From positions 13,371,046 through 13,435,045 of the forward strand of contig CM077155.1 in NCBI GenBank assembly GCA_039583875.1: a stretch of 64,000 bases of DNA. Direction: 5' to 3'. The notes beneath the pieces are model-generated. The model saw nothing but the letters and a program-made list of their open reading frames with translations, was not told the DNA's origin and did no database searches. The first letter of the stretch is position 1. Every line of letters begins with the position of its first letter. This document shows, one piece after another, positions 4,355 to 57,993 of this stretch. Made by a program: the position numbers and the translations under genes. The DNA is from Platanthera guangdongensis. Its lineage: Eukaryota > Streptophyta > Magnoliopsida > Asparagales > Orchidaceae.

Positions 4355-5056
4355 TAAAAAATAATCAATATAACGGACAAGAGGCAAATAAATCAAAAAT
4401 TTTATTACTTCAAAAATATAATCATTACATAGGTATGCCTGTGTCGTTTGTCATGGTCAAACTGCACACTATACAAAGAAAAACTGTACACCTGGCGGCT
4501 AATAAGGAAAACCTCCCCAAAGCATTGGAAGACCTCCAGTCAAGGCCTCCAGACCGAACCTACGTGTTTCCACCATACCACAATTGCGGCTAACCACCAG
4601 ACCGTAGCTGATGCAAGCCACATGACTGCATATTGCAGGTTGACACTAGACCGCAGTTGCGGCTAACCATCATTCCACTACTGAGGCTTTATCCAGAACG
4701 TTGTGGCTTCACCTGATCGCAGCGGCTTAACTCTAGACCACTACTGCAGCTTCCATCCAGTCCGCGATGGCTTAACCAGACCGCTGCGACTTAACTCTAG
4801 ACCACTACTGGGGCTTCCTGCCAGACCACTGCGGCTTAACTTCAGATACTTTGCTGTAGTCTAAAATAAGCCCGCTGGAGATGCTACCAAATAATCCACT
4901 TTACCAAACTGCCAGATGGCTAAACAGAGCACATAAGATCACACCGCCAGATAGCCGACTAGGCAAGCTGCGGCGACTAGTTTGGCTAACTGCCCAAACT
5001 ATGGTTCCAACATATATAATAAAGAAATCACATGTGTTTTTGGCGGGGTTCCAACA
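4355..5056 (-). repeat. R2 5' LTR (Copia)
   Basis: The LTR begins beside the decayed primer-binding site and ends at GGTTCCAACA (5056, or alternatively the similar end at 5012). On the minus strand this gives a TGTTGGAACC start typical of Copia LTRs. It contains an array of AGACCGCTGCGGCT-like repeats (about 4540-4860). No gene is seen. The second LTR is outside the window, so the far boundary is uncertain by about 45 bp. Confidence 0.5.
4540..4860. repeat. R2 palindrome-like array (CCGCWGCGG type)
   Basis: About seven degenerate copies resemble CAGACCGCTGCGGCTTAACT; variants include ACCGCAGTTGCGGCT, ATCGCAGCGGCTTAA and ACCACTGCGGCTTAAC. The core CCGC-W-GCGG is self-complementary. The spacing is irregular, about 35-60 bp. 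Confidence 0.65.
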
Positions 5057-5151
5057 ATATATTTGGGAATTTATAACACTTCTAAATTTCCTGATCTACA
5101 CACAATAGAATTAGCAACTTCTGAAAATTGCTCAACCTCGCTCTGATACCA
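5057..5151 (-). other. R3 leader and primer-binding site
   Basis: The plus-strand CTCTGATACCA at 5141-5151 reads TGGTATCAGAG on the minus strand, a full match to the initiator-Met primer site. The preceding bases on the plus strand are a short untranslated leader of R3, cut off on the left by R2. Confidence 0.65.
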
Positions 5152-5152
5152 C

Positions 5153-5330
5153 TGTTGGGTTTTTCTATATGACACAACACTTGTGCACATCAGAATAAGG
5201 GATAAGAAAACCCCAAAAGAAATAGATCTTATGATGAACATTGATCAAAAAGAAAAGTGCTGTGAATAAAATTTACCTTTGTGGGATTAAGTAACTACTC
5301 AATCGAGATGGTCCAAGATATCTGACAAAT
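5153..5330 (-). repeat. R3 5' LTR, fragment interrupted by R4
   Basis: The LTR begins TGTTGGGTTTTTC directly beside the R3 primer-binding site. It runs to 5330, where R4 starts. The rest should lie beyond the right end of R4, outside the window. R3 is the outermost element seen. Its leader and PBS look Copia-like, but no coding part is visible, so the lineage is open. Confidence 0.5.
5326..5330 (+). other. R4 left target-site duplication (candidate)
   Basis: CAAAT precedes the R4 LTR start TGTTGGGTCC. Its partner would lie right of the window, so it is unconfirmed. Confidence 0.4.
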
Positions 5331-5534
5331 TGTTGGGTCCATTGATCCCAATGTCTCAGATTTGTAAGACGTAAAACAAGTCAATGGTATACACATAGTT
5401 ATATTTGATGTATGATAAAGTTCATGCATGCAGGTTGCTCTTTGTCACATTTATTGGACTGGTGGATCATATGAAAATGACAGGTGGACACAAAGAAGCT
5501 AGCTGGAAAGGCAAGAATTTGCCTAAGTCCACAA

Positions 5535-6470
5535 GCATTGAGTAAAGCAAGCTTACTCAATGCCAATTATCGATATTCAACGAAGTCCACAGGCGTTGAA
5601 TGAAGCAATCTCACTCAATGCCAGTTGTCAAGGTAGAATGCTGACAAAGATAGGAAAGCAGCTAAGTCCGCAGGCATTGTGTAATGCCAGTTCACTCAAT
5701 GCCAGACAGCAAAAGCTCTTTGTAAAGACTAGACAATCAAAGCCCAGTAGTTTGCAGAGATAATATTGCAGCTAAGTCCACGGGTGTTGAGTGAAGGCAG
5801 TTCACTCAACTACTATATCAAGAAGCGACATGTTTACCTTAGTTTTTCAAAGCTTCAGTATTGGCAAGCAAAAAATTCAACTAAGTCCAGAAACATCGAG
5901 TGAACACAGCTCTCGATACTTGAAGAAGGAAGCGTTGAATCAAGCTAATTCTAATAAACCCAAAGAAGAAGAAGGCAGAAAAATTAACTAAGTCCAAAAG
6001 CATTTAGTGAGGTCAGCTCACTTAATGTCATAGAAGAAAGCGTCGTGTGATGATAAAGATCAAGAAGTGATAGAACGAAAAATCTGTCTAAGTACAAAAG
6101 CATTGAGTGATGAAGCTTCACTCAATGCTCTCAATGCCTGGTAGATAAAGATAGTTGCGGCTAAGTACAAAAGCATTGAGTGATGAAGCTTCACTCAATG
6201 CTCTCAACGCCTAATATGCAAAAAGGTTCAGATTATTGACTAAGTGTTTTGGCATTGAGTGAATCATGTTCACTCAATGCACTCAATGCCCGGAAGTGCT
6301 GAAGAATTGACTAAGTCCATAGGCATTGAGTGAAGCCAGTTCACTCAAAGCACTCAAAGCCTAAGCAAGGTTGAAGATTTTACTAAGTCTGGAGGCATTA
6401 GTGAAGCCAGTTCACTCAACACACTCAACACCTGAGCAGGAACTAAAAAATTGGATGAGTCCACAGATGC
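5535..6470. repeat. R4 palindrome array (GCATTGAGTGA / TCACTCAATGC hairpins)
   Basis: About ten units of roughly 80-100 bp each carry CTAAGTCC, then GCATTGAGTGA, a short loop, then TCACTCAATGC. The two arms are complementary, so each unit can form a hairpin with a loop of under about 15 nt. Copies near 6175, 6255 and 6320 are the clearest. Confidence 0.85.
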
Positions 6471-7898: not shown

Positions 7899-8361
7899 CA
7901 AGTCCATTTCTTCAGAAGAATGATATTTCTCGAGAAATCATTGTCTTTCTCGAGAAAAGGACATAGCTTCTCGAGAAAAGACTTTGAGAAAATTTCATTG
8001 AAGTAAGCTATCTGATTTCTCGTGAAGGACAATATTTCTCGAGAAATGATTTGATTTCTCTAGAAACAATACGTCCTGTCGAGAAATTTACTTAGCGCAA
8101 AATTCGTGAATTAGAATTCTAATTTCTCGAAAAGGATATTATTTCTCGAGAAACAGTTTGATTTCTCGAGAAATACTATGGCTTCTCGAGAAATTTACTT
8201 AGCGCAAATTATGGAACTGAAGACAGATTTCTCAAGAAGAAGACTTAGCTTTCTCGAGAACTTCTTTGCTTTTCTCGAGAACATCCTGGCATCTCGAGAA
8301 ATATATAAGGCATTTATTGAGAAAAGGACTTAGCATATTTTTCAGTTAATTTCTCGAGAAT
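7899..8361. repeat. R5 palindrome array in 3' LTR (TTTCTCGAGAAA)
   Basis: More than a dozen perfect or near-perfect copies of the 12-bp palindrome TTTCTCGAGAAA (XhoI core CTCGAG) occur at irregular spacing of about 20-40 bp. Variants include TTTCTCGTGAAG and TTTCTCAAGAAG. Confidence 0.9.
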
Positions 8362-10485: not shown

Positions 10486-10861
10486 CATTTCTCGAGAAAA
10501 GTAGGTTTCTCGAGAAATCCGTAACGCATTTCTCAGGAAATAGAATTAGTGTTCCGAGAAATCCAGAGATTGTTTCTCGAGAAATAGGGGTCTTCTTGAG
10601 AAATCAAAGTCCTTTTTCCGAGAAATCAAACCTGTTTTCGAGAAAAAGACTTGGCTATCTAGAAATTCACAAGTTTCTGAGAATACTAAATTTTTTTTTC
10701 AAGAAGTATACATCTTTTATACAGAAATAAGGGTTTTCTCAAGAAATCCAGAAATTGTGTCTCGAGAAGTTCAGATGTTTTCGAGAAATTCACTAAGTTT
10801 TCGAGAAGGAGACTAAATTTCTGGAGAAGTAGACTTCTTTTCTCGAGAAATTAGGATTTTA
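10486..10861. repeat. R5 second palindrome array, pol to extra-ORF spacer (part 1)
   Basis: About fifteen copies and variants of TTTCTCGAGAAA lie between pol and the extra ORF. The array continues at 31191-31256 on the other side of R6, which inserted inside it. Confidence 0.85.
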
Positions 10862-10866: not shown

Positions 10867-11568
10867 TGTTGAAGCGAAAATTTGACTTCGACAAAAGTTC
10901 AAAAATAGGGGCGTAGCCAAAACCTACTCGTCCCAAGCCCTGACCTCCGACTGGTCGTGAAGGACTAGAAACCAACCATAAGCCTCAGCAGGGAGGTACC
11001 ACCGCTTACCCGGAATATCTATGAGAGATTCCCCTCCAAAGTCAAAAGCTGGGCTTAGAGCTCCTCAGAAAGCACGGAAAAACTCTTAAAAGTCCCGGGA
11101 AAAAAGGTGCTTCTGAAGAACTCCTATGGGCCTATTTATAGTTTTCTGAGTTGGATCTGCAAATAGCCACACTGAACTGACCTGAAATTAATAAAATACA
11201 CTTGATTTGGTCTGCCAACAGCCAAACTCCGCTATTCTGAGGAGTTATGTGCAGACCACCGAGGGCAAAAGAGTAAAATCCTCTGTGGGTTTAAAAATGT
11301 AAAAACTGCCCTCTCTCGGCACGGTGAGTAGGGAAGCACCCAACGACGAGACGAACCCTTCTGGCCGTCTCACAGGCTATCCCTATATTGAGATCCACTC
11401 GCCGTTATGGGCCTACTCGCGCCCCAAAAGGGGCATCTCGCCCACTACAGAGACCATCCGTCCCGCCCCCTGTGAGTGAACCATGTGGTTCCACTCGCCT
11501 CGCTGGTATCTCGCCAACTTCGACTATTTGCACCTTGAGGGCCTCTCGCGAGCCCGAGGTTGTATACA
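10867..11568 (-). repeat. R6 3' LTR
   Basis: It starts TGTTGAAGCG and ends TTGTATACA. It is collinear with 30468-31190; the other copy has an extra short duplication around 30870-30890. A minus-strand polypurine tract follows. No gene is seen. Confidence 0.8.
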
Positions 11569-17655: not shown

Positions 17656-17757
17656 TAAATCCGAAACGTTAAAAACAGGGGAGATTCCCCAATCAGTGGG
17701 TAACTTTAATAAATATGCATTTTCGCCTAGCTTCTTTAAAACCCAAAAAGGACTGAC

Positions 17758-18921: not shown

Positions 18922-19062
18922 AAGATGCTTGATAATGAATGTGTACTCCTAAAGATAGGAGACCCATTTGGCGTGCCGAGAACTGATTTTATTTTGGGAG
19001 TTTACAAATTTTAGCGCCTCATGATCTGATAAGATGAAAAATTCTTTCGATATAAGATAGTG

Positions 19063-20301: not shown

Positions 20302-20313
20302 GAAGGTCTCACG

Positions 20314-22314: not shown

Positions 22315-22318
22315 AAAT

Positions 22319-36038: not shown

Positions 36039-38011
36039 TGTAACACCCCCATCTGCCGCATGGCATATAACAGAAGGTCCAGCTGGAACCCGACGCAATA
36101 TACCATAGACAGTCGGAAGGGTTACTAAATGAATAATCAAACCAACTAATTAAGACTGCTCGTCCTAATCACAGAGCATTCTAGCGGAAGATTTTAAAGT
36201 TGAAAGAACCCAAACTTAAATCCATCAAATATGAATGTCCACAACTACAACAACAGGAATGAAACCTCAAATACACTGAAACGGGTACATGGCCTTATGA
36301 CCTTACAAATGTTCATAAAATATAACATGTCTTACATACATCGGCTCGCAGGCCGGCCACACAAGATAAATGTAAAAACAACTATTCTACGGCCTTCTAG
36401 GGCCATCACAGCAACATGGGCTCCAGCCCGCTATTTGGCGCTCGACTCCGTAGCACCTGCAAGAACATACCACCGCACGATGGCAAATAAGGCAACGGTC
36501 AGCTAAAAGCCGACCAAATTATAACAACCCCGCCCCTTACTCGGGACGGCGGTGCTCTTTCCCTGCATAGCATTAGTGCAATAAGATAATATAGCACAAT
36601 TATATTTCTCCACAGGTGTAGGCTCGCACGACCAAACACCCCGTGTACTCAGGGCACATTCATGGTGAACCCTGACCAATCAGTGCATTCACCACCACCC
36701 CCAAGATGGCAATAACATGTGAGCATTTAGCCTATCTGACCACCGTCTAAGGCTCCGACTATGCCTACAGCCAGTGCCCGTCTTCGGATTTCTCGCACCG
36801 TACCACATAGCCTAGGTCCAATTCCACTTGCCCGTTGCTCACGCCGCATATATAATTTAAGTCCTATGCGCGGGCCAAGCTTCTCTCGGATCCCAATTTT
36901 TTCCAAAACAATCTCATAACCCAGTTATGATCAAGGCCGGTTCCCAGACAGCCAAGTTAGCAGAACACATTTCCGCTCAGTTTTCCGGGTGCACCTTGAA
37001 GCTAACCTCCAAGGATCCCTGCTGCAATCTACCGTGTAGAAACCCGAAAAACCCAAAGCACGGAGTCTTCTCCGGCAAAACATATCAAATGCAACATCAC
37101 CGATCAAGACAAGACACGTCCGCGTAGGCTTCACACACAATGCCTATGCCCGTACTTACGATTCCGGGCTCTATATGCAACACAAGGGGGACTATTCACA
37201 TCAACCCCAAGGAACACCACGCACTCACCGCACACTCGCGGGAGCGGGGTTCCCTATGCAAAAGAAAGAGCTTCAAACGCTCAAGTTGAGAATCGTTACA
37301 CTTGTAGTCCGTTTTGTCGTCATGGAAAAACTACGCGGATAGAACTCTTCGCAACGACCTTCCCTCCACGGATCCGCTCTCAGACTTCGAAATGGTGCTC
37401 CGATGCTCCGCCGGCGGCCGGAAACCTCCTTCTTCTTCCTCTTCTCTCTCACTTTGGAAGGAGAAAGCTTTGGAGAGAAAATGAGGAATTAACCCCCTAT
37501 TCCCGGCCTTAACAGAGCAGGATCTCATCTGGGCCGTCGAATCTTAATGCAAGAAAACGAACGGCTCAGATCTGCACAAAATCCTCCAGACCTGGGCCGA
37601 ACACGGCTTGGCACACGGCCGTGTCCCAGGCCGTGTGCCTCGATCCAGGCACAATCGTCGAACTGAGAGACACACACGGGACATGACACGCCCGTGTCTC
37701 ACCTGACACGCCCGTGTCGGGTTCTTCGACACGCCCGTGTTCGGGGGCGTGTCACGCATAACCGCCACGGCAACGGACACGACCCTACTGCACATGGGTA
37801 GGGACACAGGTTGGCACACGCCCGTGTCGGAGGACACGCCCGTGTCATCCGGCCGTGTTCCTGGCCGTGTCCTTCTCGGGTTGAAAATGGCCAAAAAAAT
37901 CACCAGCCAGACACGGCCTTGGACACGCCCGTGTCCTAGGCCGTGTACCCCTACAGGCACCAAAAACCATTTTTTCGTGACCGACTCGCACACAATATTC
38001 GGGGCGTTACA
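36039..38011 (-). repeat. R8 3' LTR
   Basis: TGTAACACCCCC to GCGTTACA, 1973 bp, collinear with 42895-44867 with scattered substitutions. No gene is seen; short frames here are shadows. Confidence 0.93.
37600..37948. repeat. R8 palindrome array (ACACGGCCGTGT / GACACGCCCGTGTC)
   Basis: About ten copies of the ACAC-GSCC-GTGT motif lie within 350 bp. ACACGGCCGTGT is a perfect 12-bp palindrome; the commoner ACACGCCCGTGT differs by one base. The array lies near the outer end of the LTR (start of U3). Confidence 0.9.
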
Positions 38012-39951: not shown

Positions 39952-39978
39952 ACCACTGCCCGAAGCATCACTATAGAT

Positions 39979-41463: not shown

Positions 41464-41516
41464 ACGTAAGCTAACAAATACAAAGGTAACAACTATAAAA
41501 GTTAAACCACTGTAAT

Positions 41517-42881: not shown

Positions 42882-42891
42882 TCTGATACCA
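42882..42891 (-). other. R8 primer-binding site
   Basis: The minus strand reads TGGTATCAGA, matching initiator-Met tRNA, 3 nt from the LTR edge. Confidence 0.8.
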
Positions 42892-42894
42892 AAT

Positions 42895-44867
42895 TGTAAC
42901 ACCCCCATCTGTCGCATGGTATATAACAGAAGGTCCAACTCGAACCCGACGCCATATACCACAGACAGTCGGAAGGGTTACTAAATGAATAATCAAATCA
43001 ACCAATTAAGACTACTCGTCCTAATCACAGAGCATTCTAGCGGAAGATTTTAAAGTTGAAAGAACCCAAACTTAAATCCATCAAATATGAATGTCCACAA
43101 CTACAACTACAGGAATGAAACCCCAAATACACTGAAATGGGTACATGGCCTTATGGCCTTACAAATGTTCATAAAATATAACATGTCTTACATACATCGG
43201 CTCGCAGGACGGCCACACATGATAAATGTAAAAACAACTATTCTACGGCCTTCTAGGGCCAGCACAGCAACATGGGCTCCAGCCCGCTATTTGGCGCTCG
43301 GCTCCGCAGCACCTGCAAGCACATACCAACGCACGATGGCAAACAAGGCAACGGTCAGCTAAAAGAAGACCAAATTATAACGACCCCGCCCCTTACTCGG
43401 GACGGCGGTGCTCTTTCCCTGCATAGCATTAGTGCAATAAGATAATATAGTGCAATTATATTTCGCCACAGGTGTAGGCTCGCACGACCAAACACCCCGT
43501 GCACTCAGGGCACATTCATGGTGAACCCTGACCAATCAGTGCATTCACCACCACCCCCAGGATGGCAATAACATGTGAGCATTTATCCTATCTGACCACC
43601 GTCTAAGGCTCCGACTATGCCTACGGCCAGTGCCCGTCTTCGGATTTCTCGCACCGTACCACATAGCCTAGGTCCAATTCCACTTGCCCGTTGCTCACGC
43701 CACATATACAATTTAAGTCCTACGCGCGGGCCAAGCTTCTCTCGGATCCCAAATTTTTCCAAAACAATCTCATAACCCAGTTATGATCAAGGCCGGTTCC
43801 CAGACCGCCAAGTTAGCAGAACACGTTTCCGCTCATTTTTCCGGGTGCACCTTGAAGCTAACCTCCAAGGATCCCTGCTGTAATCTACCGCGTAGAAACC
43901 CGAAAAACCTAAAGCACGGAGTCTTCTCCGGCAAAACATATCAAATGCAACATCACCGATCCAGACAAAACACGTCCGGGTAGGCTTCACACACAATGTC
44001 TATGCCCGTACGTATGATTCCGGGCTCTATATGCAACACAAGGGGGACTATTCACATCAACCCCAAGGAACACCACGCACTCACCGCACACTCGCGGGAG
44101 CGGGTTTCCCTATGCAAAAGAAAGAGCTCCAAACGCTCAAGTTGAGAATCGTTACACTTGTAGTCCGTTTTGGCGCCATGGAAAAACTACGCGGATAGAA
44201 CTCTTTGCAACGAACTTCCCTCCACGGATCCGCTCTCAGACTTCGAAATGGTGCTCCGATGCTCCGCCAGCGGCCGGAAACCTCCTTCTTCTTCCTCTTC
44301 TCTCTCAGTTTGGAAGGAGAAAGCTTTGGAGAGAAAATGAGGAATTAACCCCATATTCCCGGCCTTAACAGAGCAGGATCTCATCTGGGCCGTCGGATCT
44401 TAATTAAAGAAAACGAACGGCTCAGATCTGCACAAAATCCTCCAGACCTGGGCCGAACACGGCTTGGCACACGGCCGTGTCCCAGGCCGTGTGCCTCGAT
44501 CCAGGAACGATCGTCGAACTGAGAGACGCACACGGGACATGACACGCCTGTGTCTCACCTGACACGCCCGTGTCGGGTTCCTCGACACGCCCGTGTTCGG
44601 GGGCGTGTCACGCATAACTGCCACGACAACGGACACGACCCTACTGCACACGGGTAGGGACACGGGTTGGCACACGCCCGTGTCGGACGACACGCCCATG
44701 TCATCCGGCCGTGTTCCTGGCCGTGTCCTTCTCGGGTTGAAAAAGGCCAAAAAAATCACTAGCCAGACACGGTCTTGGACACGCCCGTGTCCTAGGCCGT
44801 GTACCCCTACAGGCACCAAAAACCCTTTTTCCGCGACCGACTCGCACACAATATTCGGGGCGTTACA
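42895..44867 (-). repeat. R8 5' LTR
   Basis: 1973 bp, TGTAACACCCCC to GCGTTACA. Carries the second copy of the ACACGGCCGTGT array at about 44455-44800. No gene is seen. Confidence 0.93.
44455..44800. repeat. R8 palindrome array in 5' LTR
   Basis: Same motif series as 37600-37948, with a few substitutions, such as ACACGCCTGTGT and ACACGCCCATGT. Confidence 0.88.
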
Positions 44868-45653: not shown

Positions 45654-47372
45654 TGAAAGTATCTACCGTTTACCTAAATCACCTAGAGGGGGGGTGAATG
45701 GGTGATGTTTGTGTCTGTTTTCGGAATAAAAAATTTAAAAGACAAACACACAAACACAGAGAATTTTATAGTGGTTCTTCGTATTGGGTACGTCCACTGT
45801 CCCGTCTCACCTATCTGCCACAAAAGGTATGATTCGGCTATTACACCTTTATCATATTATCACAATATTACACCTCGGAGCAACTATCCTACACCTCGAA
45901 GAATAAGAGCTCCTACACCTCGATCCACTACCGGATCGACAATCTCGATACACAAATGGATCTACAAACTCGATCCATAAATGGATCTACAAACTCGGAG
46001 ATAAAACTCTTACAAACTCGGATACAAAGCTCATACAAATGAAAAAAACAATTTACAACAATAATGAAAATGTTTTACACTTCAGATTTGAAATCTTCCT
46101 TCTTTAAACTTGAAAATCTTGTTGAATATGTTGAGGAAGAAAAACTGAGAAGGCTTATCTAAAAGCTAGGATCTGTCCCGATCAAATAGAAGATGAAGAA
46201 TCTGTTGATATTGGATCTCTCGAATCTTGTCTTGCTTTGAATCGCTAGATATGGATAGAGCGACAGAGAGGATTGACGATGAAGATGTGCGGCTTTTCTC
46301 ATGAAAATGAAAAGTGCTTTAGCGATTCTAATTATGTAAAAATTATTCTTCTTGTGAATGATTCTTCGGGTCGGCGAATCCTTAAAGTGACTTTACATAT
46401 GTCGTCGACCAACGGTCAATCGTCATTAAGGTAGGATCCACGTAATTAAGGAAAGATCAATCATACTAAACTTAGGCTAATTTGAATTCCTGTCAGAAAA
46501 TTTTGAAATGAAAATTCCGCAAGTTCATTTCTCGAGAAATTATTATATTTCTTGAGAAAAGGACAAAACTTCACGAGAAAAGACTTAGCGAAATTTCTTT
46601 GAAGTAAGCTATCTGATTTCTCGATAAGGACAATATTTCTCGAGAAACGATTTGATTTCTCAAGAAACAATACGTCCTCTCGAGAAATTTACTTAATGCA
46701 AAATTCGTGAAGTAGAATGCTGATTTCTCTAAAAGGATATTATTTCTCGAGAAACACTTTGCTTTCTCGATAAATACTATGTCTTCTCGAGAAATTTACT
46801 TTGCACAAATTTTGGAACAGAAGACAGATTTCTCGAGAAGAAGACTTAGCTTTCTCGAGAACTTCTTTTCTTTTCTCGAGAACAACCCGACTTCTCGAGA
46901 AATATACAAGATATTTCTTGAGAAAAGGACTTAGCATATTTTTCAGGTAATTTCCCGATAAGTCTTGAATTTTCTCCAGAGCAACAATGCTTTCTCGAGA
47001 AATTTACTTAGACTTCTCGAAAAATACATGACATTTCTCGAGAAGAGGGCACGGGAAATTTTTAGTGAAATTTTTCTTTTCTCCTAAGATGAAACCACAA
47101 CTATTCCTTTCTTCCATTTCCTTAGTACTTGAAAATGAAGTGCATCCCAATTGAGAGGTTACACATGAGTCAACACCATGGATCACACAATGAGGGATTA
47201 CATTGAATTGTCTGGTATTTGGTGACTCATTGTAAACTGATATTGGTCTACACTTAGCAATATTAACTTGCAAGCACTCAACTAAAAGATGGAATACAAT
47301 ACAAACTTAATTCATCTTAGTTCAAGGGTGATTTCATACAAATCTGGGTTATTATGGATACAATACCCAACA
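45654..47372 (-). repeat. R5 5' LTR
   Basis: 1719 bp. On the minus strand it starts TGTTGGGTATTG and ends ATACTTTCA. It carries the TTTCTCGAGAAA array (about 46527-47050), a decayed TATA near 46392, and a CACCCATTCACCCCCCCTCT / TAGGTG hairpin near its end. No gene is seen. Confidence 0.9.
46527..47050. repeat. R5 palindrome array in 5' LTR (TTTCTCGAGAAA)
   Basis: About twenty copies or variants of the 12-bp palindrome, collinear with 7899-8361 and extending beyond the point where the left LTR is truncated. Confidence 0.9.
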
Positions 47373-47390: not shown

Positions 47391-47535
47391 TGTCGGGTAC
47401 ATTGGATTAAATGTACATGATTTGAAGAAGCCTCGCCCTACTCAATGATATACATCAAAATGTATTTGATGTATTTTGAGTTGCCTTGTGCAGGTTAAGT
47501 ATTTGCAGGGAAAGATGAAAAGTTTCTAAGTCCAT

Positions 47536-48412
47536 GTGTCGACACCCAGAAGGAAAGTGTCGACACTTAAGAAGACTTGTGTCGACACCCAGTCAAGCAG
47601 TGTCGACACTTGGAGTAATTGTGTCGACACTAGGGATGCAGAGTCGACACCAGACAGAAAGTGTCGACACATGAAGGCTGTGTCGACACTCAATGAAGAA
47701 AAGTCCAGTGAAGCTGTGTCGACACTTAGAAGCAGTGTCGACACCCAGAGGAACTGTGTCTACATCAGAAAGTGTCGACACTTGGAGGCTGTGTCGACAC
47801 TCAGCAAATTTCAACAGAGTCTAAGTATAAGTGTCGACATAATAAAGAATGTGTCGACAATCAGCAGAAGACTCAACACATGAAGAAGGTGTCGACACAA
47901 TGAAGAATGTGTCGACACACAGCAGATGACTCAATACATGAAGAAAGTGTCGACACTAGGAGGCTGTGTCGACACTCTGCAAAGTTCAACAAAATTCTAA
48001 GTACAAGTGTCGACACAAAGAAGATGTGTCGACACTCAGCCAAAGTCTCAACAGAAGAATAATGTGTCGACACTAGGAGCTGTGTCGACAATCAGCAAGT
48101 ATCAACACATAAGGCAAGTGTCGACACCAAGAAGATATGTTGACACTGAACAAGTTCAACACAAGAAGATGCGTCGATACAAAGGAGTTGTGTCGACACT
48201 TACAAGAATTCAACTAAGTACTGAAGAACAAGAAGTTGTGTCGACACACAATATCAATGTCGACACATGATGAAGAAGCTGTGTCGAGACATAAATTCTA
48301 CAACACAAGGAGTTGTGTCGACACCTTGAAGGCTAGTGTCGACACTTAGTATACTTGTGTCGACACTTGGTCTATAAGTGTCGACACTTAAAGACAGATT
48401 GTCTCGACACTT
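47536..48412. repeat. R9 palindrome array in 5' LTR (GTGTCGACAC)
   Basis: More than twenty perfect copies of the 10-bp palindrome GTGTCGACAC and several one-base variants over about 880 bp, at irregular spacing of about 17-45 bp. It begins right after CTAAGTCCAT. Confidence 0.95.
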
Positions 48413-48544
48413 TCAGACAGTTACAGATATTTCAAGAACTGACTGGATGACTTGACAGCTGCCATTCCATCCGGTCTACTGCACCTGTCAGAGATGTCAG
48501 TAAGCTGTTAGGAACCGGATCAGCCGGTCACCATGAAGAAGGCC

Positions 48545-48552
48545 TATAAATA
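48545..48552 (+). promoter_or_regulatory. R9 5' LTR TATA box
   Basis: TATAAATA in GGCCTATAAATAGGC, about 130 bp after the array. Transcription probably starts near 48575. Confidence 0.75.
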
Positions 48553-49416
48553 GGCTTATTCTGTCAACAGAAAAAGGGTCTAAGAGATTAACAACAAGAG
48601 ATCAACAATCAAAGAAGAAGATCTAGCTATTCATTGAAGAATCAAGTGAAGATCTAAGAAGTTGGAGAGAGAGAGCTCCTTCCAAGAAGACAGCCGTTGG
48701 AACCAGGCTGTGAAGAAGGGTTCAGACCTAGTTCTGAATCTTAAGTTGCAGTGATTGAAGATCAGCTGCAGAGAATCAATCCTATTGTGTTTTACATTCA
48801 AGAAGCTTTGAAGAAAGCCAAGTGAGGTTGATCTCAGCAGAGTTCATTCAAGAACTCATCAAGAACCTGTCAACTCATCTCTCTTTTTCTGAGTTGTAGG
48901 TATATTGTTTGTATTCTAAATTTCTTGTAGGATCCTTAGGGATCTGAGTTGTAAGCCTACAATTATAAAGGCTGAGTGGTAGGGCCTGTGTGCCTGAGTG
49001 TAGGAGATCTATTTCTCTGAGTGTAGGCATGTTGTGGCTGAGTGTAGGCCTTGTGGCTGAGTGTAGGTCTTTGGAGAAGACTGAGTTGTAGGGCCTTGGG
49101 CCTGAGCTGTAGGAACCTGTTTGGGGTTCTGAGTGTAAGATTTGAGGATCTGAGATAGTGGAGGAGTTTGGCCAAATCTAGTACACTACTAGATAGGCGA
49201 AGGGGGAAAGTGGATATACCCAAACCTTGGGGAACCACTATATATCTGTGTGTTCACTGTGTGCATGTTTGATTCTGTGATTGCCGATTGATTTCTGTGA
49301 AGAAGTAATTATAACTCTGTGATATAATCTGTAATCTGCTTAAAAAGTCTAAAAAGATTTAGTCACCTATTCACCCCCCCCCCCCCTCTAGGTGATTAGG
49401 TACAATTTCTTTCAAG

Positions 49417-49430
49417 TGGTATCAGAGCCA
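49417..49430 (+). other. R9 primer-binding site
   Basis: TGGTATCAGAGCCA, a full match to initiator-Met tRNA, 2 nt after the LTR. Confidence 0.92.
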
Positions 49431-49518
49431 GGTTACTCAAAAAGGACTTAATTGTCTGAGTAGATCCTGTTGGCAGATTCAGTATAAGTAAAGTGCAGAA
49501 TCAAGAAAATCAAGAAAC

Positions 49519-51555
49519 ATGAGTTCAACAGAGAATCATAAGGAACTTGGATCCATGAAGTTGCCCATTTGCAGAAAAGAGATTTTTGGCATCTGGAAAG
49601 AAAGGGTGAGACTATTTATGGAAGCCTCAGACCCTAGAATTTACATCACAGTTAAAGAAGGGTCACATGTTCCTATGAAGGTTTCAGTCCTGGATGCAAA
49701 TCAGAGAACACCTAAGAACTTCTCTGAAATGACAAAAGATGAGATAATTCTAGCCACAATGGACAAGAGGGCTCAGAATATCATTGTGAGTTCCATAGAT
49801 GAGGCTACCTTTCAGAACTTGATACACTGTAAGACATCTAAGGAGATGTGGGATACTTTGATAGTGTATATGGAGGGTTCAGAAGAAGTGAGACAGGACA
49901 GAAAGTCTTTGTTAAATCAAGAATATGAAAGTTTCAGGCAAGGTAGGTTTGATAGCATAACAGAATGCTATAAGAAGTTCTATAGGATTGTCAATAAGCT
50001 AATGTCCTATGGAAGTGAATTCAGTAATTATGAGCTAAATGATAAGTTCTTGAGGTCCCTAACAAAGGATTGGGACACCAAGATCTGTGCCATTGGGGAA
50101 ATGGCCAAGTTAGCAGATATTCCTCCTCCAACTTTGTTTGGAAAACTGCTATCATATGAAATGCAGTTGATGGTAAGGAAAGAAGAGGAGAAGACTATCA
50201 GAATAGAGAATAAAGAAAGAACAGTGGCATTCAAGACAGAAGCCACCAGAAAATACAGAAGTAAGTCTCCATCTCCACCTCCAAAAGTGGCTGAGACTGA
50301 GTCAGATGATTCAGAAAGCAGAAAGTCTGAAAGCAGTGAAAGTGATGAGGACTTTGCAGCATTCACAAGACACTTTCAGAAGTTTCTAAAGAAGAAACAG
50401 TGGAGGACAAAGCCATCCACTTCACAGGGAAAAGATGACTATTATCAGAACAAGAAGTCATCAAAGAAAGACAGGAGAAAGCCCAAGTCAAGCAAAGCAA
50501 CTTTATCAAAAATTGTATGCTATTGCTGTAACAGACAAGGACATGTTATTGCTGACTGTTCAGAGAAAAGGAAAGAGTCTAATGATAAGAAGAAGACTCA
50601 ATTCAAGGGCAAGAAGGAAAGGTCCTTTATTGCCAAGAAGGACAAAAGCCTGTCAGACATATCTTCTTCAGAAACTGAGTCAGAAGCTGAAGCATACATA
50701 GGACTGTTTGCTGAAGAAGAGGAAGAGGAGTTCATCCAGATAATGAACTCTATATATGAGCAAGAGGACATTCAGTGCAAAGGACTGATGGCCTTAACAG
50801 AAGGTGACAAAATCCAGGATCAGCCTGGACCTAGTCAGGTACAAAATTGTTCTTTAAGTTCAATTTCTAGTGCTAGTTCAGATTCAGTTACATCAGCATC
50901 AAGTGATGCCAGTGGATCTGAATCTGAAGGGGATGTTCATCAGTTGATTGATGAATATAGAGTTCTGTTGCAAGCATTTAAGAAAAGAAAATCCTTGGCC
51001 AAGAGTCAGGCTAGGGAGATTGTAAGTCTCAAAGTGGCTGCAACTGATTTTGAGAAGCTGATTGATCAAAAGTTAAATGAAATAGCCAGACTGAAGAACA
51101 TAACTGTTATTCATATGGGAACTATAACATTCAAGAATGATCAAATCAGAAATCTGGAGATTAGTCTTCAGAAGGAGAGAGACATAGTTGCAAGGTTTTC
51201 TAAATCTAAGTCTGTTCTACCTTTGATTGATGAGTTTATACCTCACAAGGGTAAAACTGGATTGGGGTTTACTAACCCTGCTAGGACTGTAAAGTCCAAG
51301 TCTAAGGGCAAAGCCCCAGCTCTAAACAAGCCAGCTGTAGATAAAATAGCTAGGGATATACCTAAGCAAAGGTACAATAGATTTGAGTGCTGGTGCTGTG
51401 GCAAGGTAGGCCACTTTGCCATGGACTGTTGGCATAATTCTAGTGCCAAGTTGAGTAGCAAACTGCCTGTTGGAAGATCTGCAGGTAGCTTTGTTAAGAG
51501 GCAAACTAACCAGCACCAAGGACCCAAGAATTCTTTGGGTTCTAAGGTCAACTAA
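49519..51555 (+). CDS. gag: R9 gag (intact, two zinc knuckles)
   Basis: An uninterrupted frame of 678 codons from MSSTENHKELGSMK, about 90 nt after the primer-binding site. The N-terminal half is the Copia gag (UBN2-type) domain with FGIWKERVRLFMEA, KTSKEMWDTLIVYM and LTKDWDTKICAI. A first CCHC knuckle CYCCNRQGHVIADC is at residues 334-347. Ser/Glu-rich and coiled-coil regions follow. A second knuckle CWCCGKVGHFAMDC is at residues 624-637. Gag forms the virus-like particle and packages RNA. It is longer than the roughly 300-450 residues common in Copia gags, as in SIRE elements. The stop TAA at 51553 is followed in frame by pol. Confidence 0.93.
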   Translation: MSSTENHKELGSMKLPICRKEIFGIWKERVRLFMEASDPRIYITVKEGSHVPMKVSVLDANQRTPKNFSEMTKDEIILATMDKRAQNIIVSSIDEATFQNLIHCKTSKEMWDTLIVYMEGSEEVRQDRKSLLNQEYESFRQGRFDSITECYKKFYRIVNKLMSYGSEFSNYELNDKFLRSLTKDWDTKICAIGEMAKLADIPPPTLFGKLLSYEMQLMVRKEEEKTIRIENKERTVAFKTEATRKYRSKSPSPPPKVAETESDDSESRKSESSESDEDFAAFTRHFQKFLKKKQWRTKPSTSQGKDDYYQNKKSSKKDRRKPKSSKATLSKIVCYCCNRQGHVIADCSEKRKESNDKKKTQFKGKKERSFIAKKDKSLSDISSSETESEAEAYIGLFAEEEEEEFIQIMNSIYEQEDIQCKGLMALTEGDKIQDQPGPSQVQNCSLSSISSASSDSVTSASSDASGSESEGDVHQLIDEYRVLLQAFKKRKSLAKSQAREIVSLKVAATDFEKLIDQKLNEIARLKNITVIHMGTITFKNDQIRNLEISLQKERDIVARFSKSKSVLPLIDEFIPHKGKTGLGFTNPARTVKSKSKGKAPALNKPAVDKIARDIPKQRYNRFECWCCGKVGHFAMDCWHNSSAKLSSKLPVGRSAGSFVKRQTNQHQGPKNSLGSKVN

Positions 51556-51561
51556 TCTGTT

Positions 51562-54500
51562 TTGCAGGTGAGTCCAAGTGGACATGCCCCAATATGGTAC
51601 TTGGATAGTGGATGTTCCAGACACATGACTGGAACTAAGGGATTGTTAAAGGACTACACACCAATCAACGATGGTCCTAAAGTCACCTTTGGTGGTTCTG
51701 AAAAAGGAATTATCAAGGGTTTTGGTAACATTTCTAGCACCCATATAACAATTACTCAAGTGGCTTATGTTAAAGGTTTGAAACATAACCTTATTAGTAT
51801 AAGTCAATTGAGTGATTTAGGATATGACATCTCATTTATCAAAGATGGTTGTCATATCAGGAGGTCAAATGATCAAGAGATCATTTTGAAAGGTTATAGA
51901 AAGAGAAATGTCTATTGCCTAGACATTATGTGTGAGAATAATGGTTCTCCAGTGTGTCTTGTAGCTGATGAGAAAGTCTCTCATTGTGTCAAATGGCACA
52001 AGAGGCTAGCCCATCTTAACTACAAGACAATTGGCCAACTCTATAGCAAAGAGTTAGTGAGGAATGGTCCTCAAGTTAAGTGTATTAAAGATGGAATATG
52101 CTCAGCTTGTCAAAAGGGCAAGCAGACTAGATCCACCTTTAATAGCATTGAAAACAAAGATGTTGTGAGGTGCTTATACCTCTTGCATATGTATCTCTTT
52201 GGTCCTATGCCAGTTCACAGCCTAGGTAGGAAGGTCTACACATTTGTGGTTCTACATGATTACTCAAGGTTTTCCTGGGTGTTCTTTCTTAGACAGAAAT
52301 CTGAAACACCTAGTATCTTCTATAGTTTTGTCAAACAAATTCAGAATGAGTTAGACAGTACAGTGGTCAAAGTAAGAAGTGACCATGGTACTGAATTTCA
52401 GTCTGATAGTATGGCAAAACTATGTGAAGAATTTGGGATATTTCAGGAATTTTCTTCACCAAGAACACCTCAGCAAAATGGCATTGCTGAGAGGAAAAAT
52501 AGAACCTTGATTGAGGCTAGTAGAACCCTATTAAGTGACACATCTCTCCCAGAATATTTCTGGGCTGAGGCAGTTAATACTGCATGCCATGTAATTAATA
52601 GGGCTACAATTACTAAAAGCCACAATAAGACCCCCTATGAGATTGTGAAAGGCAGAAAACCAAATTTATCCTATTTCAGGATCTTTGGTTGTAAGTGCTT
52701 TATACTTAACAATGGAAAGTCTTACTTGACCAAGTTTGCTGCCAAGTCCCAAGAGGGGATCTTTGTTGGGTACAGCAACAATAGTAAGACTTATAGGGTC
52801 TACAACTTGTCTTCACAAGTTGTAGAAGAGTCAGTACATGTAGTATTTGATGAAGCTAGAATTATTAACAATGAGTTGTCTAGAAGTATTTGCAGCTCCA
52901 CAGGTGTGACTAAGAAGATGGACAAGCTCACTATTGAAGAAGGATCTACTGCAAGTCAGCATGAAGATGATAGTGGCTATTGTCCAGGGGGAGTACTACA
53001 TGTACCTAATGCAGAAGAAGTCCAAGGAGTGCAGCAAGATGAAGAAGCTGAAGGAGTTCAACCTGAAGCCAGGATGCCTCTAGCTAATAGGCATCTAAGA
53101 GATCATTCAGCAGATCAAATCATTAGTGATATAAGACAAGGGGTACAAACAAGGAGCAGAAATCTGAGTGCAGCACTCTACTCCAGTTTTCTATCCCAAG
53201 TAGAGCCAAAGAAGTTTGAAGAAGCCATCATATACCCTCATTGGATTGAGGCAATGTAAGAAGAGCTGAATCAGTTCAAGAGATGCAAAGTCTGGGAGCT
53301 TGTTCCTAAACCAAAAGACCACAGCATAATTGGAACCAAGTGGATCTTTAGGAACAAGATGGATGAAAATGGAGTGATTATTAAGAACAAAGCAAGACTG
53401 GTTGCTAAGGGATATAGGCAGGAAGAAGGTATTGACTTTGATCAAACCTTTGCTCCAGTGGCCAGACTGGAAGCCATAAGGATGTTCCTGGCCTATGCAA
53501 CCTATCAAGGATTTAAAGTATACCAAATGGATGTTAAGTCAGCCTTTCTGAATGGTAATCTAAAGGAAGAGGTCTATGTGGAACAGCCATCAGGTTTTGT
53601 TGATTCAACTCAACCTAATTATGTCTATAGACTTAGGAAGGCTTTGTATGGGTTAAAACAAGCCCCTAGGTCTTGGTATGAAACCCTGTCTAGTTTCCTC
53701 ATTGAGAATAAATTCACAAGGGGGAAAATAGACAAGACTCTATTCCTTAGGGAATCCAGAGGCAAGATCATTCTACTCCAAATATATGTAGATGACATAA
53801 TATTTGGGTCTACTGAAGGTAGTCTTTGCAAAAAGTTTGCAAAACTAATGCAAGGACAATTTGAGATGAGCAGTATGGGGGAACTTAAGTTCTTCTTGGG
53901 TCTCCAAGTTAGACAGACTAAGAATGGTTTATCCTTATGCCAGTCTAAGTTCACCCTAGAACTGATAAGGAAGTATGGTATGGATTCATCCAGTATCATG
54001 AAAACTCCTATGGGGTCAAGTATGTCTCTTAGTAAAGATGATGCATGGAAACCTGTAGATGAGACTTTATATAGAGGGATAGTTGGCTCCCTATTGTATT
54101 TGACTGCAAGTAGACCAGATATCATGTATGCTACATATGTCTATGCTAGGTACCAAGCATGACCTAAAGAGTCTCATTTGACAGCAGTCAAAAGAATTCT
54201 AAGATATCTTAAGGGCACTCCTTATCTAGGCCTTTGGTACCCTAGGAATGGAGACTTTGAACTGACAGGTTATTCAGATGCAGATTTTGCAGGCTGCAAG
54301 GAAGATAGAAAAAGTACAACTGGTACCTGTCAATTCCTAGGTGGAAGACTGATATCATGGAGTAGCAAGAAGCAAACAAGTGTGGCTATCTGCACAGCAG
54401 AATCAGAATATGTGGCTGCAGGAAGTTGTTGTGCTCAACTTCTATGGATACAACATCAACTTGAGGATTATGGTATTCAAGTAAGTAGAACACAACTATT

Positions 54501-54729
54501 TTGTGATTCTACTAGTGCTATATCTATTACAAACAATCCTGTTTCCCATAGTAGAACTAAACACATTGAAATAAAATATCATTTTCTAAGGGAACATGTT
54601 GAAAAAGAAGATATTTCACTAGAGTATGTTAATACAGATAATCAACTAGCTGACATGTATACTAAGCCTTTAGAAGAAACCAAGTTCAATAGGTTTAAAA
54701 TTGAATTAGGTATGATAAACCTAGAATAA
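51562..54729 (+). pseudogene. pol: R9 pol: protease, integrase, RT, RNase H (two nonsense changes)
   Basis: The frame is continuous with gag past one TAA; there is no ATG at its start. Protease IWYLDSGCSRHMTG; integrase finger HKRLAHLNY ... CSACQKGK; core with SDHGTEF and NGIAERKNR. The first catalytic Asp is replaced: residue 211 reads LHMYLFGPM where R4 and R5 have HMDLF (codon TAT at 52192). RT has [16 protein letters not shown] and [10 protein letters not shown]. RNase H has YSDADFAGC, TAESEY, CDSTSA and NQLADMYTK. In-frame stops: TAA at 53257 (before EELNQF) and TGA at 54160 (after ARYQA), both consistent with C-to-T. Otherwise open to 54729. Confidence 0.93.
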
Positions 54730-54755
54730 GTTTACAGAAATGGCTAAGTAAAATA

Positions 54756-55084
54756 GTGTCGACACACAGAGTTGTCTGTGTCGAGACAGAGAATTGGTGT
54801 CGACACTTCAGCGAAAAGGTGTCGACATATCTAGGAAGTTGGTGTCGACACTTCAGAAAATTTGTGTCGACACATACAGGGTCTGTGTCGACACAACCAA
54901 GGTGGTGTCGACACTTAGAATTTACACAGAATTAACCAAGTAAAGTCTCGACTAAGTGTCGAGTTAAGTGGTGTCGACACATAAACAAGTGCCGACACAT
55001 ATATTCTGTCGACTATACTTGTGTCGACACATTGTTGTCGAGACATTATAAGTCTGTGTCGACACTTTTCAACAGTGTCGACAC
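54756..55084. repeat. R9 second palindrome array, pol to extra-ORF spacer
   Basis: About ten copies of GTGTCGACAC or GTGTCGACAT and variants, the same motif as in the LTR, in a non-coding spacer. It ends 46 bp before an internal TATA box. Confidence 0.93.
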
Positions 55085-55130
55085 AATTTGAGTTTGTTAA
55101 TGCGCCCTTTCATCTTCAATCCTAGAAAGG

Positions 55131-55138
55131 TATAAATA
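55131..55138 (+). promoter_or_regulatory. Internal TATA box ahead of R9 extra ORF
   Basis: TATAAATA in AGGTATAAATAGG, closely like the LTR box CCTATAAATAGG, about 100 nt before the ATG at 55237. Confidence 0.7.
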
Positions 55139-55236
55139 GGATTTCGCCATTGTCTGTCGGCACGCTCACCAAAGTTTCGAGACCAAACTTGTGTGTCGAC
55201 ACCTCTCTTCTCTCAATTCAAATTCTTCAAACCCTA

Positions 55237-56696
55237 ATGGCGCCCAAGCTCGAGGAGAACGTGAATGAAGGATATGAACTGGTGCGGCATGCGTTTGATG
55301 ACGCAGAACCAGAGATCAAGGATGTGGTAACCCTAGTTGCAAACTCAGGGTTAGCTTTTCTTGTTTCAGAGCCGACAAAGATATGGAAGAAAGAAGTTCT
55401 GGAATTTCTAAATTGCGCATCCCTAGATGAATCCGGACTAAAGATTAAGTCTAGGGTTCATGGAGAAAAGGTGAAGGTCTCACCTAAGAGTTTGAAAAAG
55501 GTACTAAACTTACTAAGGACTAAGGAAGAAGATGAAGTTTCTGCTTCCAAGACCAGAGAAGCTTTAACATGGTGTGGACTGGATTCCAAGATGAAAATTG
55601 GATCAGTATTCAATAGAAAGGGGATGAACAGCCAAGGCAAATTTCTCTCTGAAAGTGTTGGCAAGGTGATCCTGTGCAAGTCTGGAGGACATGACAGGAT
55701 TTCAGCATATATGTTCAGTCTAATGACAAGGTTAATCTTCCAACTAAACACTGATTGGTCTGGAGTATTGTTTGAGAAGATAAAGCTTTACAAGAGGGCA
55801 TAACTGCTGTTACTTCTGCTATTGACAACTCTCAGAAGTTGATAACTGAAAAGCTCCAAAGGTTGAAACCTTTCTTTAAAGATGGAGTAAACTATTTGGA
55901 TGCCCAAATAAGATTTCAAAAGGATGATCTAAGAGATCACATGGAAAGTGAAGTCATAAAGGGGGAGAGGGTGTTAGTCAAAGCCAGCTCTGATCATGCA
56001 AAGTGGATTTCTAATTCTATCAGAGCCACTCTTGGTTATCCTCCTTTATGCGATGATGATAATTTTGCAGAGTATGGGATTCATCCTGCTTATCTTGGAG
56101 GGGAGCAAGCTGAAGTGGCTCAAGTAATATACCCTCCACCAGACTTTGATATGGTACAATCAGATATACAATCCATGTATAGCCCACCTGAGGGAAAGCA
56201 AAATGTCATCATAGAAAAAGTGGTTCAGCCAGTATCTGAGGCTATACAAGAAGCTTTGCAGAAAGAACAAGAAGCCAAATTGTCTAAGAAGAGGTTTAGA
56301 GAGCAAGCTGAACAAAGGCCTGATTTTGAACAGTGGAGCCCCACTTCAAGGAATATTATCTTAACTGCATGGAAGGCTGCCAAAGACAATATTCAAGATA
56401 GAAACAAGTGGTTTTCTGAACTAAAGTGGAGGAAGCATGAGACCAGACAAGAAGCCATTGTGCAGTATAGAAGAAAGGCAAAGATGGGAAAGCTACCTTT
56501 TACTGCCCAGGAGCCTAGCAAGTACTTTCCTAAGCCTTATCATTACTTTGAGAGGCAAAAGATCAAAGCTGAAGAGCTAAAGAAAAAGGATCTTAAAGGC
56601 AAGAAGCCTGCTGCTACTGAAGATGCTGAAGCCCCTGTGCAAGCAAAGATACAGTCTGGGAAGGGCATAGTTATCAAGGAGGCTGAGCAAAAATAG
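55237..56696 (+). pseudogene. R9 extra post-pol ORF (one frameshift)
   Basis: Starts MAPKLEENVNEGYELV. The first frame ends at 55803. A one-base shift around 55780-55800 links it to the second frame, which carries ITAVTSAIDNSQKLITEKLQ and runs to 56696, about 485 residues in total. The first half contains NSGLAFLVSEP and GKVILCKSGG, shared with the R5 extra ORF. The second half has a Pro/Asp-rich part, then Lys/Glu/Gln-rich helices (EAIQEALQKEQEAKLSKK) and a basic tail (ELKKKDLKGKKPA). No signal peptide or membrane segment is seen. I do not recognise a named domain; function unknown. Preceded by its own palindrome array and TATA. Confidence 0.75.
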
Positions 56697-56957
56697 AATA
56701 GAATTATCTTTAGTTTACAGTTGTAATCTTTTGATTTTAAACACTCTGTAAACTTTTGTATAATGTATATGACAAAGTTGTTAGAACAATGTGATGTGTG
56801 AAAAATCTACTACATAATTGTTCTGAGATATATGTGTGTACATGTTTTGTTTAATACATGTTTATGTACTTTCCCTGATTGCATAATCTTGTTTTACATC
56901 ATACTGTGATTTTGTTATGTATGGTGTATATCATTGACTAAGGGTTATGACTTCTCC
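56697..56957 (+). other. R9 3' untranslated region
   Basis: Non-coding, AT-rich, between the extra ORF stop and the polypurine tract. No array and no gene are seen. Confidence 0.7.
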
Positions 56958-56970
56958 AAATAGGGGGAGA
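56958..56970 (+). other. R9 polypurine tract
   Basis: AAATAGGGGGAGA, ending one base before the 3' LTR. Confidence 0.88.
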
Positions 56971-57117
56971 TTGTTGGGTACATTGGATTAAATGTACTTG
57001 ATTTGAAGAAGCCTCACCCTACTCAATGATATACATCAAAATGTATTTTGATGTATTTTGAGTTGCCTTATGCAGGTTAAGTATTTGCAGGGAAAGATGA
57101 AAATTTTCTAAGTCCAT

Positions 57118-57993
57118 GTGTCGACACCCAGAAGAAAAGTGTCGACACTTAAGAAGACTTGTGTCGACACCCAGGTAAGCAGTGTCGACACTTGCAGTAA
57201 TTGTGTCGACATCAGGGATGCAGAGTCGACACCAGACAGAAAGTGTCGACACATGAAGGCTGTGTCGACACTCAATGAAGAAAAGTCCAGTGAAGCTGTG
57301 TCGACACTTAGAAGCAGTGTCGACACCCAGAGGAACTGTGTCTACATCAGAAAGTGTCGACACTTGGAGGTTGTGTCGACACTCAGCAAATTTCAACAGA
57401 GTCTAAGTATAAGTGTCGACATAATAAAGAATGTGTCGACACTCAGCAGAAGACTCAACACATGAAGAAGGTGTCGACACAATGTAGAATGTGTCGACAC
57501 ACAGCAGAAGACTCAATACATGAAGAAAGTGTCGACACTAGGAGGCTGTGTCGAAACTCTGCAAAGTTCAACAAAATTCTAAGTACAAGTGTCGACATAA
57601 AGGAGATGTGTCGACACTCAGCCAAAGTCTCAACAGAAGAAGAATGTGTCGACACTATGAGCTGTGTCGACACTCAGCAAGTATCAACACAGAAGGTAAG
57701 TGTCGACACCAAGAAGATGTGTCGACACTAAACAAGTTCAACACAAGAAGATGTGTCGACACAAAGGAGTTGTGTCGACACTTACAAGAATTCAACTAAG
57801 TACTGAAGAACAAGAAGTTGTGTCGACACACAATTTCAGTGTCGACACATGATGAAGAAGCTGTGTCGAGACATAAATTCTACAACACAAGGAGTTGTGT
57901 CGACACCTTGAAGGCTAGTGTCGACACTTAGTATACTTGTGTCGACACTTGGTCTATAAGTGTCGACACTTAAAGACAGATTGTCTCGACACT
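57118..57993. repeat. R9 palindrome array in 3' LTR
   Basis: Collinear copy of 47536-48412 with a few substitutions. Some copies that are imperfect in the 5' LTR are perfect here, and the reverse. Confidence 0.94.

Follow-up and report, generated by a model that had tools for sequence, protein, structure and literature searches.

We show that two retrotransposons within a 64,000-nt stretch of the 4.25 Gb genome of the orchid Platanthera guangdongensis (C9:13371046-13435045, referred to in full as the window) carry arrays of a short palindrome, both in their long terminal repeats (LTRs) and upstream of a third gene, ORF3. The two elements, R9 and R5, are Sireviruses of the Copia type, and their core trait is a fresh instance of the Sirevirus 'repeated motifs' published in 2010, palindromic arrays that differ between elements and occupy the LTR as well as the region 5' of the third gene (PMC2829016). 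In both places units of fixed sequence stand before a TATA box, at the internal position the start codon of ORF3 follows downstream, and this arrangement recurs genome-wide. We consider it probable that the R9 and R5 arrays are such repeated motifs and function as upstream activating sequences, with the palindromes serving as sites for a dimeric factor ahead of two TATA promoters. The original prediction, made from the letters of the window alone, had assigned a palindrome array to each of six elements; R9 and R5 carry theirs as described, R8, R4 and R1 do so in altered form, and the array of R2 is absent.

Palindrome arrays ahead of two TATA boxes

The window consists of nested LTR retrotransposons. 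R9 (47391..58999, plus strand) has LTRs at 47391-49414 and 56972-58999 that are 97% identical, and a target site duplication (TSD) of GTTAT. Its gag-pol reading frames occupy 49492..54162 on the plus strand, and its coding domains (Retrotran_gag_2, rve and RVT_2, the last at 7e-76) correspond to a Copia-type gag, integrase and reverse transcriptase (RT). The word TGGTATCAGAGC at 49417, directly after the 5' LTR, forms the primer binding site (PBS) junction, and we take it to be the PBS of a Sirevirus; a polypurine tract is joined to the AT/TG attachment site at 56963 (GGGGGAG-AT/TG). R5 is an older minus-strand relative, split by the nested insertions R8 and X2, and a third Sirevirus-like element lies to the right of R9.

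Ten-base palindromes in each array were compared with the mean of 100 dinucleotide shuffles. The R9 palindrome, GTGTCGACAC, occurs in 63 exact copies within the window. Its arrays, all on the plus strand, lie in the 5' LTR (47536..48410; 32 sites with at most one mismatch), between pol and ORF3 (54756..55085, with scattered further sites up to 55202) and in the 3' LTR (57118..57992, with a TATA box at 58127), and hold 25, 10 and 28 ten-base palindromes against shuffle means of 0.9, 0.3 and 0.8, respectively. Across the three R5 arrays, all on the minus strand, TTCTCGAGAA is present in 24 copies and TTTCTCGAGAAA in 13. Here the ten-base counts are 11 versus 1.2 in the 3' LTR (7927..8360), 10 versus 1.1 in the 5' LTR (46529..47044) and 4 versus 0.8 in the internal array (10489..10849), the last count only equalling the shuffle maximum, while 12-base palindromes at that position number 4 against a maximum of 2. 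The claim that such arrays are unlike a simple tandem repeat was half right, since Tandem Repeats Finder reports degenerate periods of 19-22, 43, 58, 117 and 175 bp in R9, while distances between exact sites group at 19-22 and 36-41, some gaps being longer.

The word TATAWAW, sought within 200 bp of 13 arrays against a background of 0.095, is present downstream of 11 of the 13, upstream on the same strand of none, and downstream on the opposite strand of two. The TATA box of the R9 5' LTR (48545..48551, plus strand) lies 134 bp past the array, and the distance is 133-134 bp in the R9-type LTRs compared (both window copies and those at two other loci, L001 and L013). The TATA box of the putative R9 internal promoter (55131..55137, plus strand) follows the internal array by 45 bp, and the R9-type internal arrays of the window, L020 and L011 keep this distance at 45-46 bp. 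In the R5 3' LTR, the R5 internal array, L016 and L019 the box lies 96-147 bp past the array, with the R5 3' LTR (147 bp downstream in the element sense) and the R5 internal array (96 bp) at the two extremes. R9 and R5 share with the repeated motifs a palindrome whose LTR copies number at least eight and precede a TATA box (the 5' LTR copy of R5 having none within 200 bp). Both also have linker copies 5' of the third gene, at 54756-55085 before ORF3 in R9 and at 10489-10849 before an ORF3-like match (9708-10184) in R5.

In the window copy of R9, the ATG of ORF3 is found 106 bp after the internal TATA box. The order is unchanged in L020, whose array and TATA box are followed by an intact ORF3 with its ATG, and no ATG was seen after the internal TATA box of L011, where another sequence interrupts. 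Genome-wide, the combination GTGTCGACAC-N25..55-TATAAATA occurs at 24,763 places (12,502 + 12,261), against 1 + 3 for the reversed control; the first hundred or so matches listed, all on contig C1, resemble the surroundings of the internal promoter. The authors of the 2010 paper leaned towards an internal promoter as the driver of the third gene without identifying one (PMC2829016), and the succession of internal array, TATA box and ORF3 start codon described here is a new candidate for the promoter that it could not pin down.

ORF3, a gene of the kind called 'env-like', is represented in the window by an N-terminal part (55237..55803, plus strand; 188 aa from ATG to stop) and a C-terminal part in a different frame (55776..56696, plus strand), without the middle part found in L020, where an intact ORF3 encodes 947 aa (L020:482-3322, minus strand). 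The intact protein has a nuclear-type basic motif, KKKRK, at 252, and simple hydropathy revealed no membrane-like segment in it (maximum 19-mer 1.11; first 40 residues 0.09). The membrane and nuclear localization signal (NLS) calls are crude. By this simple hydropathy, for which no dedicated predictor was run, the L020 protein shows neither the signal peptide nor the transmembrane segment of a retroviral envelope, and, judged from its sequence, ORF3 does not look like an envelope. A Pfam search of the intact protein returned no DNA-binding domain and only a sub-threshold match to PF20167, located in the N-terminal part (26 bits against a cut-off of 45), and an AlphaFold model of the N-terminus was unusable (pLDDT 44.5). 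The N-terminal part of the ORF3 family had only six protein matches, at 61-69% identity, in a database that is not a full plant collection; all are from orchids, five being of Platanthera zijinensis and one of P. guangdongensis, so that the matches by themselves make a host near Platanthera probable.

Unit conservation, genome-wide occurrence and CpG content

Between the units of one array, the column majority reaches 91-97% in the motif and 46-53% in the flanks, with at least 80% motif identity built in by the choice of sites at no more than two mismatches in ten. To this extent the unit is kept while the spacers vary, as had been proposed. When the LTRs of a single insertion are compared with each other, the same does not apply: changed bases number 10/360 in the motif and 15/515 in the spacer for R9 (P = 1), and 34/217 and 68/498 for R5 (P = 0.49; 13/170 and 30/272 without non-colinear columns, P = 0.32). 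Pooled non-CpG bases of four LTR pairs give 17/1217 and 105/6389 (P = 0.62). With the R9, R5 and pooled comparisons all null, we reject a constraint on the motifs after insertion. Divergence of the motif as fast as the spacers, named in advance as an outcome that would speak against the original prediction, is thus seen within insertions and not between the units of an array.

In the GTGTCGACAC family (196 units, 175 of them distinct), pairing ends sharply at 10 bp without covariation, and flanking pairs at positions 6-8 are below chance (lower-tail P 0.015-0.03). Changes in the core are one-sided, only 2 of the 107 two-mismatch variants from the samples and the window being symmetric. The TTCTCGAGAA units behave likewise, with a single compensated cell, at position 4, among 91 units. 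That the R9 and R5 units are fixed at 10 bp, end abruptly and hardly ever change in a compensatory manner favours a dimeric DNA-binding protein over a hairpin for these two elements, as far as the sequences can tell.

Exact GTGTCGACAC occurs 2,076,908 times in the whole genome, or about once per 2 kb, against 2,228 occurrences of the reversed word, and pairs spaced 21 bp occur 294,920 times against 0 in the control. In a sample of 20 ten-kb stretches with preset coordinates on 11 contigs, again with the reversed word as control, there are 73 copies of GTGTCGACAC in 7 stretches and 13 of TTCTCGAGAA in 3, with 0 for either reversed word. The 73 sampled GTGTCGACAC sites lie in Sirevirus context (53), in R8-like Ty3 LTRs (16) and in L023 (4). 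The motif is common to several Sirevirus copies with differing spacers, and in the R8-like Ty3 LTRs (L009, L013, L016 and L024) it stands in exact form within repeat units of ~103 bp, adjoining their own GACACG-NN-CGTGTC dyad; R8 itself has zero copies. Because it is also present in these Ty3 LTRs, GTGTCGACAC is not private to the R9 family, and the proposals that each family has its own motif, and that a genome-wide count would find it confined to that family, do not hold. The presence of GTGTCGACAC in Ty3 LTRs with other flanks suggests either a common trans-factor or the transfer of a short sequence. A literature search for the 10-mer found no plant-transposon topic among the titles listed, and one for palindromes and chromoviruses showed no palindrome arrays in Ty3 LTRs among the matches listed, which is no proof of their absence.

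The R9 family is also characterized by a near-total loss of CpG. Observed against expected CpGs in R9-type gag-pol are 1/195 in R9, 0/187 in L020 and 3/165 in L011; in ORF3 they are 1/102 in L013, 10/61 in R9 and 8/126 in L020, and they are 6/43 in the R9 LTR after the array and 15/179 in the third element. The corresponding values for pol of other elements are 56/131 (R5), 137/163 (R8) and 83/94 (X1), and the 20 stretches pooled have an observed/expected ratio of 0.73. CAG and CTG are not depleted in R9 gag-pol (1.70 and 1.47). If the same proteins were written in the codon usage of neighbouring Ty3 elements, an average of 39-130 CpGs per ORF would be expected, where 0-8 are observed; arginine is written AGR, with one CGN across all five ORFs. 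Since L020 has open frames for both ORF3 and RT, we infer that CpG loss is a trait of a once active lineage and goes beyond decay after insertion.

Within the R9 LTR arrays, all 34 CpGs fall inside palindromes (at most two mismatches), with 0 in the spacers where 15 are expected, and the L013 LTR array has 34 of 35 inside. The internal arrays retain CpGs outside palindromes, 7 in R9 (8.7 expected) and 6 in L020 (7.5 expected), which counters a strict rule, and R5 spacers are just mildly low. Palindromic CpGs may reflect either strong selection or an escape from methylation-driven loss while the lineage was active. Unpolarised CpG changes in the four LTR pairs seemed to indicate a continuing protection (7/141 in palindromes versus 11/36 elsewhere, P = 7e-5; for single pairs, 3/36 versus 5/10 in R9, P = 0.09 in R5 and P = 1 in R8). 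Once polarised, losses are 5/139 versus 2/28 (P = 0.33), in a test to which the misaligned tail of the L028/L029 pair added spurious gains and in which 3 changes could not be polarised. The apparent protection disappears because many of the changes outside palindromes were CpG gains, and lasting protection after insertion is therefore rejected. The CpG emptiness of the R9 family makes a putative switching by methylation more interesting.

Spaced dyads in the other elements

R8 is a Ty3 element inserted in R5 (36039-44867, minus strand; TSD CCACA, Ty3 domains). Its uninterrupted perfect palindromes are at chance level by the shuffle test, and the motif first ascribed to it, ACACGGCCGTGT, occurs only once per LTR; a spaced-dyad scan identified the actual repeating dyad as CACG-NN-CGTG, with 7 copies in one LTR (37613..37935, minus strand) and 5 in the other (44469..44790, minus strand), 12 in all. 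This dyad is present at 7 of 8 other loci tested (L009, L012, L013, L016, L018, L022 and L024, with none in L021). R4 has 11 spaced-dyad units like GCATTGAGTGA-n7-TCACTCAATGC in a minus-strand LTR (5530..6430; PBS at 5151), and R1 has 12 shorter dyads with the same arm (2050-2600) plus six copies of TTCGAYGAA (2614-2781), together spanning 2050..2781 on the minus strand. The motifs claimed for R4 and R1 thus survive as spaced dyads and, in R1, as the TTCGAYGAA array, and not as uninterrupted palindromes, which exceed the shuffles in neither element. For R2 we reject the array altogether, as CCGCWGCGG has 0 copies in the window and palindromes of 8 or more bases are not in excess.

The dyads of these elements differ from those of R9 and R5 in that some of their arms covary. 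Among 14 distinct R8 units the inner pair is paired in 11, where shuffling gives 4.8 (P = 0.0007), in a subset selected after inspection, and the outer pair shows no covariation (6/14 versus 5.9). R4 covaries overall (82 paired cells versus 75.6, P = 0.002), R1 gives no signal (P = 0.11), and one of 16 pairs covaries in L019 (P = 0.0015), the units of R8, R4, R1 and L019 being few and related. L006, with 6 distinct units, gives no signal. A pooled analysis of 111 distinct R8-like units is not relied on, as it mixes unit types and background sites. The partial covariation in R8 and R4 points to the palindromic form itself, not to a single fixed site, and in covarying arrays selection for pairing cannot be told apart from arm-to-arm correction. 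The predicted binding sites for a dimeric protein fit the fixed 10-bp dyads upstream of TATA in R9 and R5, and fit R8 and R4 less well.

Further arrays were noted at other loci. In a Sirevirus-like element at L023:9176-9400, TTCGTCGAAC-n3-GTTCGACGAA dyads lie between pol and the next ATG and resemble the TTCGAYGAA array of R1. The array at L019:7000-7900 is rich in GC; its dyads, GGGCGGACTCC-n4-GGAGTCCGCCC, have CGG-CCG at their core, and one of their pairs is compensated. L006:8720-8970 holds a tandem array with a unit of ~31 bp centred on GAATTGGGCGCCCAATC, adjoining a Copia gag match. The remaining Ty3 elements of the window are X2 (about 10867-31190), which is inserted in R5, and X1 (15998-23575), nested inside X2, the coding pieces of both being assigned by position. 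In X2, non-coding DNA is repeated in tandem at a period close to 207 bp (23575-24614). The X2 insertion point (10867-10869) lies within the R5 internal palindrome array and that of X1 (15998/23575) within the X2 tandem array; these are two cases, and a weak preference of insertions for palindromes is already published (PMC6911290).

A probable activating factor and its alternatives

In the model that we favour for R9 and R5, each palindrome would be a double-stranded DNA site for a nuclear factor with twofold symmetry, probably a dimer, which would occupy palindromes by the tens ahead of both the LTR and the internal TATA box. The LTR promoter would produce genomic RNA and the internal promoter a separate ORF3 mRNA, so that one factor would raise genomic and ORF3 transcription together. 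Several points weigh against this model. The 13 arrays of the TATA test include LTR pairs and relatives and amount to about five independent settings; two of them (the R5 5' LTR and L009) have no TATA box within 200 bp downstream, and in two a TATA-like word lies downstream but on the opposite strand. Units could also be held alike, without selection, by tandem duplication and homogenisation. There is no constraint after insertion, though this is expected of dead copies. Also, with two million sites in the genome, an ordinary host factor would be titrated out if most of them were not closed. A rival view holds the arrays to be functionless, left behind as degenerate tandem repeats slipped in replication and were homogenised; it would account for the tandem periods of R9 and for the null comparisons between LTRs of one insertion. 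We think it highly improbable, as it leaves unexplained a 10-bp window at ~95% amid spacers at ~50%, the same palindrome among unrelated spacers in LTR, internal and Ty3 LTR arrays, the link to TATA boxes, and the confinement of LTR-array CpGs to palindromes.

Another possibility is that pairing is kept rather than sequence, the palindromes acting as RNA or single-strand hairpins in triggering small RNAs, in RNA dimerisation or in packaging. Palindromes of maize Sireviruses have been linked to small RNAs (PMC10760457, citing Bousios 2016), and the covariation in the R8 inner pair, in R4 and in one L019 pair agrees with this idea. A spacerless 10-bp palindrome could form only a very short hairpin, and the R9 and R5 units show no covariation, with pairing that ends at 10 bp and R9-type flanks that fall below chance; the R8 outer pair and R1 do not covary either, and the R8 subset was picked post hoc from related units. 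We consider hairpins quite unlikely as a general explanation, with a hairpin or arm-correction contribution staying open for R8 and R4 because their arms covary in part.

If a dimeric factor does read the R9 and R5 arrays, it is tempting to ask whether the elements encode it themselves. ORF3, despite its env-like label, would then be a nuclear DNA-binding regulator of both promoters, like VANC, which serves anti-silencing in the VANDAL transposons of Arabidopsis. The basic motif of the L020 protein, its lack of a strongly hydrophobic 19-mer or N-terminus, and the placement of internal arrays directly before ORF3 fit this proposal, as does the published finding that linker copies occur in nine elements with a third gene and in none of four without (PMC2829016). 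VANC proteins, moreover, bind short motifs arrayed in the non-coding parts of their own transposable elements (TEs) and co-evolve with them (PMC5735166). On the other side, ORF3 offers no recognized DNA-binding domain, its PF20167 match is sub-threshold, its structural model is unusable and its membrane and NLS calls are crude; the palindrome is also present in Ty3 LTRs, and no match to the R9 ORF3 pieces turned up there, and Sireviruses without a third gene still carry LTR motifs (PMC2829016). We regard a self-encoded factor as unlikely on balance. The same doubt applies to a broader scenario in which R9-type Sireviruses run a self-encoded circuit of methylation evasion, with a body purged of CpG and, in each LTR, ~34 palindromic CpGs that a dimeric nuclear factor would recognise; this factor might be their own ORF3, driven by the second array, and a Ty3 lineage would have tapped the same site.

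The activating-sequence model for R9 and R5 finds its closest parallel in the repeated motifs of 2010, which are likewise element-specific dyads, numbering 8-32 copies, that precede the TATA box within the upper half of the LTR and recur in the linker on the 5' side of the third gene; their clusters form CpG islands (PMC2829016). The published motifs have a CGG-CCG core in 12 of 13 cases, Tnd-1 being the exception, whereas GTGTCGACAC and TTCTCGAGAA lack it, and the core here is TCGA instead. That paper, which compared Copia elements, describes repeated motifs as the sole CpG islands in seven Sireviruses, a milder form of the R9 pattern; what goes beyond its account is the location of the internal TATA box and ORF3 start, the near-total loss of CpG elsewhere, and the palindrome in Ty3 LTRs. 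The LTR palindromes of maize Sireviruses are similarly clustered and proposed to be cis-regulatory (Bousios 2016, via PMC10760457), though they have been tied to small RNAs and secondary structure while the R9 and R5 units lack covariation. VANDAL elements likewise carry short family-specific motifs in non-coding arrays spread by tandem repeats (PMC5735166, PMC10398659). They differ in being DNA transposons, with motifs in one orientation that the text searched does not call palindromic, and in having a demonstrated binding protein, which is only predicted here. VANC is the best analogy for a self-encoded reader; homology was not found in the Pfam scan, in which VANC was not directly compared.

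Our analysis adds to this literature the abundance and non-private status of GTGTCGACAC, the internal TATA box before ORF3, the contrast between fixed 10-bp units and the covariation in R8 and R4, and an ORF3 with a nuclear-type motif and no membrane-like segment. The arrangement provides a concrete candidate for an internal promoter of the puzzling third gene in Sireviruses, and a putative common switch for both RNAs. A family that is nearly out of CG context yet retains CpG in its regulatory palindromes represents a natural experiment on the co-evolution of methylation and transposon regulation, in which a single genome offers about two million copies of the site.

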